Origin: Rhodospirillales bacterium
GTDB lineage: Bacteria > Pseudomonadota > Alphaproteobacteria > TMED109
Assembly: GCA_009839325.1 (NCBI GenBank)
Contig: VXPW01000051.1
Location: 45,755 to 100,298 of the forward strand
Reading direction: 5' to 3'
Length of the DNA stretch: 54,544 nt
Below, piece after piece: positions 49,609 to 54,544 of this stretch (position 1 is the stretch's first letter; each line of letters begins with the position of its first letter). Below the pieces are notes generated by a model. That model ran no database searches. It was not told the DNA's origin and worked only from the letters and a program-made list of their open reading frames with translations. A program made the translations under genes and the position numbers.

Positions 49609-49974
49609 TCAACGAGTCTGCCGCACCCTTACTCCTAACGCGGCTGCATCGGGAAGCACGTCGGGTTTCAGCACCGTGACATTGACGCTGACCGCGCTGT
49701 CAAAGCTGAGGCAGCAGGTAGCCACACGGTCGGCAAGCGTCTCGACCAACTGGATATGGCCGTCTGCCGCGAGGCGTCGGACGGCCGTCACCACGTCCTC
49801 GTAACTGACGACACAGTTAAGGTCGTCACCATGTCGATTGGGTTCGACTTCCAACTCAACATCGACAAGGACGCGCTGCACGCTGCTCCGTTCGTGCCGA
49901 TGGACGCCGATGAGGCATTCGACTTCCAAACCCTGGACAAGAAGTGTGCGTGAGTCAGCCACGAATCGGCTCAT
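49609..49974 (-). CDS. folB: Dihydroneopterin aldolase
   Basis: The protein has about 121 residues. LLVQGLEVECLIGVHRHER is the FolB N-terminal strand, DDLNCVVSYEDVVTAVRRLA holds the tyrosine/aspartate pocket, and LVETLADRVATCC supplies the pterin-anchoring Glu. It converts dihydroneopterin to hydroxymethyl-dihydropterin in folate synthesis. The ATG at 49974 is used, overlapping the SDR stop by about 20 bases. It follows a pteridine-reductase-like gene, consistent with a shared pterin role. Confidence 0.92.
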   Translation of the reverse strand: MSRFVADSRTLLVQGLEVECLIGVHRHERSSVQRVLVDVELEVEPNRHGDDLNCVVSYEDVVTAVRRLAADGHIQLVETLADRVATCCLSFDSAVSVNVTVLKPDVLPDAAALGVRVRQTR

Positions 49975-50728
49975 CCGGAGCAGGGTGAAGCCAGCCAAGA
50001 TGCTGGCCTCCGTCCGGCGCGATCATCTGCCCGGTAACTGATTTTGCGCTGACCAGGTAAACCAGTGCGTCGGAAATATCTTCTGGCGATGGACCTGGTG
50101 ACAGCGGCAGTCGATTGCGAGTGGCACGGAAGCCAGCCTCTCCTTCAGACTCGCTGGACAGGGTCGGTCCGGGGCCGATCGCGTTGACGCGAATTCGCGG
50201 GGCCAATTCCAGGGCAAGGATGCGAGTTGCGGCCCACAGACCCGCTCGGCTCACACTGTATGAAAGGTAGTGCGGCGTCACGGTCCACACTCTGGGGTCC
50301 AGCAGATTGACGATCAGGCCGGAGGTAGAGGCAGGCAGCAGGTCTGCAAACACACGGCTGAGTACCAGAGGAGCCCTGAGGTTTAGCTCGAGGTGGTCGT
50401 CCCAAGACGTCCGGGTTCCGGTCAGCAGCGTGTCGTGCGCAAAATGCGAAGCATTGTTGACCAAGATCGTACACGGACCAAGCTGTTGTGTCGCGGTCCG
50501 CAGCAGCTGTTGTGCAGCTTCACCCGATCGCAGGTCCGCGGAGAATGCGCGAGCCACGCCTCCACCAGCCGCTATCTCCCTGACAAGGCTTGACGCCGCA
50601 TTTCCGGATCGCATGTGATGTATCGCGACCGGGTATCCGAGCCGAGCAAGCGCCCTCACCAATGCTGCGCCGATGCGGCGAGCCCCCCCGGTCACCAGGG
50701 CCATCCCTTGCCGAGCATCGTTGCCCAC
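49955..50728 (-). CDS. Pteridine-reductase/FolM-like SDR with Arg for the catalytic Lys
   Basis: This short-chain dehydrogenase of about 257 residues has TGGARRIGAALVRALARLG, the Arg-rich cofactor loop typical of NADPH-using pteridine reductases, then ILVNNASHF. The active site aligns with Leishmania PTR1: Asp (LIVNLLDP), thirteen residues later Tyr, then YSVSR where the family has YxxxK. The Arg codon CGA is at 50246-50248. Beside folB, a dihydropterin or dihydromonapterin reductase role is likely if the enzyme is active. The start is taken at GTG 50728, one base after the uvrB stop; ATG 50704 is possible. Confidence 0.85.
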   Translation of the reverse strand: MGNDARQGMALVTGGARRIGAALVRALARLGYPVAIHHMRSGNAASSLVREIAAGGGVARAFSADLRSGEAAQQLLRTATQQLGPCTILVNNASHFAHDTLLTGTRTSWDDHLELNLRAPLVLSRVFADLLPASTSGLIVNLLDPRVWTVTPHYLSYSVSRAGLWAATRILALELAPRIRVNAIGPGPTLSSESEGEAGFRATRNRLPLSPGPSPEDISDALVYLVSAKSVTGQMIAPDGGQHLGWLHPAPDEPIRG

Positions 50729-50729
50729 G

Positions 50730-52856
50730 TCAATGACGCCTTGAACGGGTCCGGCGCGAATTTCCGACGGTTCGCCGACGACGTGTTGGCGACTTGGGCC
50801 CTGCGCGCGGAGAGAGCCCCAATTCATTATCCCGCAGCGCCTTTAGCTCATCGCGCACTAACGCTGCCTCTTCGAACTCAAGCGCAGCAGCGTGCCGATG
50901 CATGCGTTCTTCCAGTTCGGCTTCGTAGGCTTCCCGGTTGTGCCCTATGCGATGAGGAATCTCAGGGCTGATCTCTACCGTTACGTGGTCCTGCTCATGA
51001 ATGCTACCCAGTACGTCAGCGATCTCCTTCCTTACCGTTTCCGCCTGAATTCCGTGAGAACGATTCCACTGCATCTGCAATTCTCTGCGCCGGCGCGTCT
51101 CGTCCAATGCCCCTTTGAGCGAATCTGTCTCCTGATCGGCGTACAGGATGACCCGTCCGTCCACATTACGTGCCGCTCGTCCAATCGTCTGAATAAGGGA
51201 CGTGCGCGAGCGCAGAAATCCTTCCTTGTCGGCATCGAGAACGGCAACCAGCGCGCATTCAGGAATGTCCAACCCTTCTCGCAGGAGGTTGATACCTACC
51301 AGGATATCGAACACACCGCGTCGAAGGTCGCGAATGATTTCAATTCGTTCCAGCGTATCAATGTCGGAGTGCAGGTAACGAACACGGAGCCCGGCTTCTT
51401 CCAGGTATTCGGTCAGATTTTCCGCCATGCGCTTGGTGAGGGTGGTAACGAGCACACGGCCTCCCCGTTCGGCGACGACGCGTGCCTCCCCTAGCAGATC
51501 ATCAACCTGGTTGCCTGCCGGGCGGACTTCACACTCTGGATCCACCAGGCCGGTTGGCCGAATCACCTGTTCAACTGCTTTACCGGCAGTGTGCTCGAGT
51601 TCCCATGGGCCGGGCGTTGCGGATACCAGCACGGTGGCGGGCCGCATCGCATCCCATTCCTCGAACTTCAGGGGACGGTTGTCGACGCATGACGGGAGCC
51701 TGAAACCGTGAGTGGCCAGCGTCGTCTTGCGGTTAAAGTCGCCTCGAAACATCCCGCGCAGCTGGGGGACGGTGACGTGGCTCTCGTCCACAAACAAGAT
51801 CGAGTTTTCCGGCAAGTACTCGAACAAAGTGGGTGGCGGCTCCCCGGGGCGTCGACCCGTCAGATAACGCGAGTAATTCTCGATGCCTGCGCAGCTTCCG
51901 GTTGCTGCCATCATTTCCAGGTCGAAATTGGTCCGTTCTTCCAACCGTTGACGCTCGAGCAGTTTCCCTGATTCCTCCAATTCCGCCAATCGCTCGGCGA
52001 GTTCAACGCGAATCCGTTCAATGGCTTGTGCAAGTGTCGGCTTCGGCGTGACGTAGTGGCTATTTGCGTATATGCGCACCTCGTCCATTGTGGCGGTGCG
52101 TTCTCCGGTCAGAGGGTCGAACTCAGATAGTCGCTCTACCGTTTCCCCGAAGAGGTCAACCCGCCATGCACGGTCTTCAAGATGAGCCGGAAAGACTTCG
52201 ATCGTGTCCCCGCGAGCGCGAAACGTCCCCCGAACCAGGTTCACGTCGTTTCTGCGGTAATGAAGTTCGACCAGGCGGGCGAGGAGAGCATTCCGTTCCA
52301 CACGGCCACCGGTCCTCAATTCGATGATCATTCGGGTATAGGTTTCGAGCGGTCCGATTCCGTAAATGCATGAAACGCTGGCAACAATGACGACGTGGCT
52401 CTGCTCAAAAAGTGCCCGGGTTGCCGCGTGGCGCATGCGATCGATGTGCTCGTTGATCGAAGCGTCTTTCTCTATGTATGTGTCCGTCCGGGGGACGTAG
52501 GCTTCGGGCTGGTAGTAATCGTAGTACGAGACGAAGTACTCGACGGCGTTGCGTGGGAACAGCGACTTCATTTCGCCATACAGCTGCGCCGCCAAGGTCT
52601 TGTTGTGGGCAAGAATCAGCGCCGTGCGCTGCAAGCGCTGAATGACGTGCGCCATCGTGAAGGTCTTGCCGGAACCGGTGACACCCAGAAGTACTTGCTC
52701 GCGTTGACCGTGCACCAGACCGTCAACTAGTTCGGCGATTGCCTTCGGCTGGTCTCCAGCCGGATCCACCTCCGCGATCAGCTGGAACTTGTTGAAGATC
52801 TTCGAGGTTCGCTCCGGCTCCAGTTCCGCGACCCTGCTCACTGGTGGTGGCCCCAC
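50730..52856 (-). CDS. uvrB: Excinuclease ABC subunit B
   Basis: This 708-residue helicase-like damage verifier has Walker [11 protein letters not shown] at about 58-67, the beta-hairpin region [12 protein letters not shown], helicase motifs such as [15 protein letters not shown] and QTIGRAARN, and the C-terminal UVR motif ([20 protein letters not shown]). It loads onto damage with UvrA and recruits UvrC. The 5' end begins with GTG at 52856, overlapping the aminotransferase end by 19 bases. uvrA is not in the window. Confidence 0.96.
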
Positions 52857-54117: not shown

Positions 54118-54544
54118 TCACGCCGCCAGCGTTCGATCCGTTTCACGGGTCACCGGGGTCGCTGAGTGCGATCGCCCCTCGCCGTGCAGCAGCGCCAGTC
54201 CCCGACGCCGGATGTTGCGGGCCGCGTTCAGGTCCGCGTGATCCGCGTGGCCGCAGGCCACACATTCGAAACTCGCCTGGGTGCGGCGCGAGGCCGCGTC
54301 CACGTGGCCACACGCGGCGCAGGTCCGGCTGGTGTGGGCCGGGTCCACCGCGACCAGCCGCGGCGCCTTGTAGGCCAGCATCGTGCGGAGACCGCCCCAG
54401 CCGGTCGCCAGGATCCCGCGGTTCAGGCCGGCCTTCTGCCGGACATGCCGGCCGGGCGCCGCCACCGTGCCCTTCGCCGACGCGGTCATCGCGCGCGTCC
54501 GCAATGCCTCGACCACCACCGTGCCCCCGGCCAGCGACCGGCTC
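54118..54544 (-). CDS. TnpB (IS200/IS605 OrfB) C-terminal part, cut by the window edge
   Basis: Only the last 141 codons are in the window; the frame stays open to the right edge, so the gene continues beyond it. VVVEAL supplies the RuvC glutamate. GLNRGILATGWGGLRTMLAY is a typical TnpB segment. A zinc ribbon follows (CAACGH and CVACGH), then DHADLNAARNI with the third RuvC Asp. All expected C-terminal catalytic features are present, so this is not an obviously broken copy, but the N-terminal half cannot be judged. TnpB is an RNA-guided endonuclease that promotes transposon retention. No tnpA is visible. Confidence 0.9.
   Translation of the reverse strand, partial: SRSLAGGTVVVEALRTRAMTASAKGTVAAPGRHVRQKAGLNRGILATGWGGLRTMLAYKAPRLVAVDPAHTSRTCAACGHVDAASRRTQASFECVACGHADHADLNAARNIRRRGLALLHGEGRSHSATPVTRETDRTLAA

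Follow-up and report, generated by a model that had tools for sequence, protein, structure and literature searches.

The window, by which we mean the whole 54,544-nucleotide stretch of DNA analysed here, comes from a Rhodospirillales bacterium (contig VXPW01000051.1) and carries a gene for an SDR of the predicted pteridine reductase type, in which an arginine occupies the position of the catalytic lysine. The gene, its two neighbours and the residues that matter for what follows are these:

49609..49998, minus strand: folB, dihydroneopterin aldolase (PF02152, 84.4 bits), into which the SDR gene extends at its 3' end
49955..50827, minus strand: PruA/FolM-type SDR pteridine reductase (putative), open reading frame of 290 aa from the first ATG
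50246..50248, minus strand: Arg194 codon CGA (the plus strand reads TCG), at the SDR catalytic Lys position
50258..50260, minus strand: codon of the catalytic Tyr190, a Tyr that is invariant in a 29-row alignment
50297..50299, minus strand: codon of Asp177, the Asp found, as in PTR1, where SDRs usually have Ser, also invariant in the 29-row alignment
50669..50692, minus strand: TGX3RXG cofactor motif, here TGGARRIG (residues 46-53), described as the pteridine-reductase form (PMC1971073, PMC13259868)
50730..52856, minus strand: uvrB open reading frame, with Pfam UvrB_inter, UvrB and UVR above cut-off, upstream of the SDR gene

The SDR frame is unbroken and sits between uvrB and folB, overlapping the folB frame by 44 nt and uvrB, whose stop is at 50730, by 98 nt when the SDR is counted from its first ATG, and the description in the first-pass annotation of an intact gene coupled to both neighbours is borne out. 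That first ATG falls within uvrB and probably lies upstream of the true start, since in three congeners out of six the frame is open over no more than 269 aa; the true start is probably to be sought between about 50710 and 50770, with the conserved core running from near 50710. The neighbouring FolB scores above the Pfam cut-off and the NCBIfam cut-off for TIGR00526 and below that for TIGR00525 (62.2 bits against 72.15), and the last score may mean that this is either an atypical FolB or a protein resembling FolX. At the end of the window there is a fragment of a TnpB-like open reading frame (54118-54543, minus strand), with a Cas12f1-like TNB domain (PF07282, 68.4 bits, positions 54118-54519 scanned).

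Profile scores and predicted fold identify a pteridine reductase, as in the earlier reading of the sequence, and more precisely one of the PruA/FolM type. The NCBIfam equivalog PRK09134 is passed comfortably, with 314.4 bits for the full frame and 313.3 for the core against a cut-off of 281, and the protein stays below the cut-offs of PRK09135 (176.6 of 288) and of the Leishmania PTR1 model (102.6 of 321.7). Pfam PF13561 and PF00106 are both above cut-off, placing it in the classical SDR superfamily with its Rossmann fold, and the top sequence matches in the PDB are the Brucella FolM entries 5tgd and 5bt9 (E about 6e-59). These are again the best matches of an AlphaFold model (pLDDT 87.6, pTM 0.87), which has 44% identity and a TM-score of 0.91 to 5bt9, and trypanosomatid PTR1 comes among the next (TM about 0.87, about 34% identity). 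Relatives in the plasmid records searched were all below 60% identity. Among the genome's 33 other SDR matches none has a true combination of TGX3RXG and Asp, one of them (L190) being without the N-terminal part, and the window gene is thus the only one found in the genome that would belong to the pteridine reductase kind. A second candidate, L183, was considered and set aside: its sequence reads TGAGSRGSLTGTG and VSSID, and the apparent signature was an alignment slip.

The active-site residues are where the first reading placed them. Thirteen residues after Asp177 comes Tyr190 and four after that Arg194, which is therefore 17 after Asp177, and in a phmmer alignment Arg194 stands opposite the Lys of Brucella FolM, so that YSVSR faces YTLSK and the YX3K motif is absent from the window protein. 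The codon is indeed CGA. We examined 30 loci, namely the window's genome, six congeners and 23 others, and found Arg in all seven of the genus and Lys in all 23 of the rest; the survey of orthologues that had been proposed as a check does not, then, return Lys throughout. CGA and CGG are each two or more base changes away from either Lys codon (AAR), and the genus uses both of these Arg codons. A sequencing or assembly error at 50246-50248 can be dismissed with near certainty, since the same residue is present in 7/7 genomes of the genus and is written with two different codons.

How widespread is the Arg form? A DNA pattern for Asp...Tyr-x3-Arg...Leu-Trp recovers all eight own-genus loci (two of which are the same place), and its Lys version recovers all 23 others; the two patterns accept only Arg or Lys at the site, so other residues or diverged genes would escape them. 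Run against a collection of 84,980 species, the Arg pattern finds 47 loci, all of which reach 280-367 bits with a profile built from the orthologues; six lie inside the genus and 41 outside it. The latter comprise 31 Acetobacteraceae (Gluconobacter, Bombella, Saccharibacter and others, the Gluconobacter oxydans orthologue, L078, being of the Arg form), four Pseudooceanicola, one Primorskyibacter, Azospirillum halopraeferens and four other MAGs. In a sample of 385 genomes of the class, the Lys pattern is matched by 126 and the Arg pattern by five, four of which belong to the genus. All 27 Arg rows that were scanned, the window's included, match PRK09134 with E up to 1e-30 (the cut-off was compared for the first row only), and because of these matches and the 41 outside loci the residue at this site does not bound the family.

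Two MAGs titled Anaerolineae and Bryobacterales (L092 and L069) carry Arg-form genes that are alphaproteobacterial, the core of L069 being identical to that of the congener L010, which points to mis-binned contigs. Of 59 Arg codons at the site, duplicates included, 58 are CGN. The sole AGG, in a Rhodospirillales MAG (L076, 2542-2607), is one base from the Lys codon AAG and looks as if it were a recent change.

We extracted 142 proteins (83 Lys, 59 Arg), removed 14 duplicate or cut-off rows to leave 128 (82 Lys, 46 Arg) and masked the site itself. The resulting tree has six Lys/Arg changes, at least four of them forced by starred branches, and when five long-branch rows are taken out the 123-row tree has eight, at least five of them forced, and rejects a single Arg clade (p-AU 1.4e-8). 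Both trees were built quickly, with SH-aLRT as their sole measure of support and many weak inner branches, and their counts do not separate gains from losses; they nonetheless indicate that Lys-to-Arg has been fixed several times among the orthologues. The stem branch of the genus is long, at 1.33 changes per column in the 128-row tree, which leaves room for an altered enzyme in the genus. As a separate matter, the genus rows (L009-L015) do not join their own family in the tree (for example L023, L024, L027 and L034), and together the long stem and this odd placement may reflect acceleration, or replacement of the gene by transfer.

Within the genus the SDR gene is under purifying selection comparable to that on folB: dN/dS is 0.035-0.091 over 21 pairs for the SDR, with dS reaching about 2 and Arg kept throughout, 0.035-0.105 over 20 pairs for folB (one more pair being saturated) and 0.015-0.051 for part of uvrB. 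Decay of the gene, which the first reading had thought not obvious, is ruled out by these values, which imply a function, not necessarily catalysis. Of the 66 columns that are at least 90% conserved among the Lys rows, 60 are unchanged in all seven rows of the genus. The six departures are L183V, F187Y, T191S, K194R, Q228E and Q236T, and four of these, K194R among them, surround the active site at residues 183-194. Because the 39 other Arg rows retain the usual residue at 187, 191 and 228 (39/39 each) and nearly always at 183 (37/39), the departures at these four positions are not needed for Arg. Residue 236 (50120-50122, minus strand) behaves differently: it is Gln in 77 of the 82 Lys rows and Thr in the genus, and in the 39 outside Arg rows it is Met in 29 (the Acetobacteraceae), Gln in nine and Glu in one, so that it could be a companion change to Arg in two lineages, though clearly not a required one.

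What, then, is such a protein likely to do? The SDR lysine keeps the nicotinamide ribose in place and makes the tyrosine more acidic by lowering its pKa. We think it probable that the window gene encodes an active and conserved NADPH-dependent dihydropterin reductase of the PruA/FolM type in which Arg194 does the job of that lysine. In the mechanism that we envisage, Asp177 and Tyr190 would give the proton chemistry, as in PTR1, and Arg194 would provide a fixed positive charge in place of Lys, hydrogen-bonding the nicotinamide ribose and lowering the pKa of Tyr190, so that both of the lysine's jobs would be done through charge and hydrogen bonds. The likely reaction would be that of a 7,8-dihydropterin to a tetrahydropterin. 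The swap would have been fixed before the sampled genus diversified and maintained by selection from then on, and in PruA/FolM-type enzymes at large Lys-to-Arg may represent a repeatedly accessible replacement that is near-neutral or mildly tuning. It is the repeated fixation under strong selection that makes activity the best reading.

The folate genes of the genus raise a more specific idea about substrate. The first-pass annotation had proposed looking for folA, and it was not found in any of the seven genus genomes, compared with 8/61 across all genomes searched. Both folP and folK are present in 7/7, as is thyX (matched only in part in the window's own genome, where the open frame contains masked bases), and thyA is found in 0/7. 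PhhA is likewise found in 0/7, and in 1/46 among all Arg-form genomes searched, so that the search for a pterin-dependent aromatic hydroxylase came up empty in the genus. According to PMC1971073, FolA-less ThyX organisms that make folate de novo must reduce dihydrofolate (DHF), and the same paper lists FolM among the enzymes able to do so. With folP, folK and folB in place and no folA turned up in the genus, DHF reduction by the window SDR is plausible. A flavin-dependent DHFR2-FolP fusion was also considered as the missing DHFR and rejected: the FolP frame of the window's genome shows only Pterin_bind, with no extra Pfam domain. It is quite conceivable, though we would not bet on it, that the SDR stands in for the missing FolA as the main dihydrofolate reductase of the organism, with Arg part of that job or compatible with it.

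Looking beyond the genus, 35 of the 41 other Arg-form genome entries are without folA, including all 30 Acetobacteraceae tested (L066 excluded), as one might hope if the SDR were the main DHFR; among the 41, the proteins of L055 and L094 are identical, and the two entries may represent a single genome. Six, however, do have it, namely five Pseudooceanicola/Primorskyibacter entries and a Caulobacteraceae MAG. In the class sample folA is found in none of the five Arg-form genomes and in 32 of the 126 Lys-form genomes, but that leaves 94 of the 126 without it. These counts do not support a tie between folA loss and the Arg form. Over all 385 genomes, 32 have both genes, 99 the SDR gene only, 100 folA only and 154 neither, a somewhat anti-associated pattern (Fisher p 0.003; a stricter folA cut-off gives 0.015) that is weak evidence, given the relatedness of the genomes and the use of exact patterns to look for the SDR gene. 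With 94/126 Lys-form genomes lacking folA and 154/385 lacking both, folA loss neither needs nor predicts Arg, and an unrecognised DHFR, or diverged copies that escape the patterns, seems to be common in the class; a DHFR other than the window SDR may thus exist. Biochemistry from relatives also argues against a main DHFR. As summarised in PMC13259868, Agrobacterium tumefaciens PruA reduces dihydropterins and does not reduce dihydrofolate effectively, the Brucella abortus homologue behaving alike, and PMC1971073 for its part doubts that folate reduction is the normal job of FolM.

That substrate profile lends itself to another proposal, which we hold to be possible but rather doubtful, namely that the window protein is a PruA-like reductase for pterin signalling, whose tetrahydromonapterin would feed a c-di-GMP switch of the PruR/DcpA type. 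In its favour, the nearest solved structures are those of Brucella FolM, and the B. abortus enzyme is described as having the substrate profile of PruA (PMC13259868); the substrates of Brucella FolM itself are called unknown in its structure paper (PMC8725004). A signalling role, however, leaves the missing folA unexplained. A bolder claim, and one that we regard as improbable, is that in several alphaproteobacterial lineages where the searches turned up no FolA (the genus, with ThyX but no ThyA found, and Gluconobacter, Bombella and Saccharibacter) the YX3R PruA-type SDR is the essential DHFR, in which the convergent Arg would be adaptive for dihydrofolate or NADPH turnover.

Very unlikely, to our minds, is a protein that has lost catalysis and is retained as a scaffold or for binding NADPH or pterin. 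Such a reading could point to the long stem branch of the genus and to HSD3B7, another SDR, in which Lys163 changed to Arg is called catalytically inactive (PMC11648244). Against it, only one gene of this kind was found in the genome, Asp, Tyr, the cofactor motif and the other family signatures are kept, selection resembles that on folB, and at least 4-5 Lys/Arg changes have occurred across the orthologues; the suggestion in the first-pass annotation that the protein might be inactive or moonlighting does not fare well in the light of these facts.

Precedents for Lys-to-Arg in other SDRs point both ways. The K163R mutant of 7alpha-HSDH is said, in work by Tanabe in 1998, to have kept much of its activity. 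Mutating the three triad residues of that enzyme dramatically lowers activity, according to PMC4785404, which cites that work. In vivo, Escherichia coli FabG remains active with K155R (PMC7973133), a precedent made weak by the fact that K155A, K155I and K155E also work there and that the authors doubt whether the triad is catalytic in this enzyme.

Why should the Arg form matter? Classical SDRs are taken to use the YX3K lysine in catalysis, and natural Arg orthologues that recur across lineages, that of Gluconobacter oxydans among them, furnish ready-made pairs for testing its role. A 2026 review calls YX3K broadly conserved in the PruA/FolM family (PMC13259868), and no natural YX3R SDR is named in the titles and abstract openings searched. 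Should the Arg enzymes also reduce dihydrofolate, this would help to answer what replaces FolA in bacteria in which none is found, a gap stated in PMC1971073. And if it proved true that a YX3R SDR is the essential DHFR of these lineages, the missing DHFR would have been identified and trimethoprim insensitivity there would be a matter of enzyme type.

It remains to place the protein among its better known cousins. Trypanosomatid PTR1, which has an Asp-Tyr-Lys active centre, shares TGX3RXG and the fold with the window SDR, which has Arg where PTR1 has Lys. Oxidised pterins are further substrates of PTR1, whereas E. coli FolM and PruA are reported not to reduce them (PMC1971073, PMC13259868). 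The E. coli FolM-type dihydromonapterin reductase (PRK06483) is a related SDR with the same motif (PMC1971073), but it represents a different group, since the window protein reaches only 94.5 bits of that model's cut-off of 249. FabG K155R has its Lys changed to Arg at the equivalent SDR residue, but is an engineered mutant of another enzyme. Closest of all are Brucella FolM and A. tumefaciens PruA (PRK09134/NF006597), the latter placed in this family through the description in review PMC13259868 rather than by alignment; with them the window SDR shares the family cut-off, TGX3RXG, the Asp and the Tyr, and it departs from Brucella FolM in having YX3R instead of YX3K.
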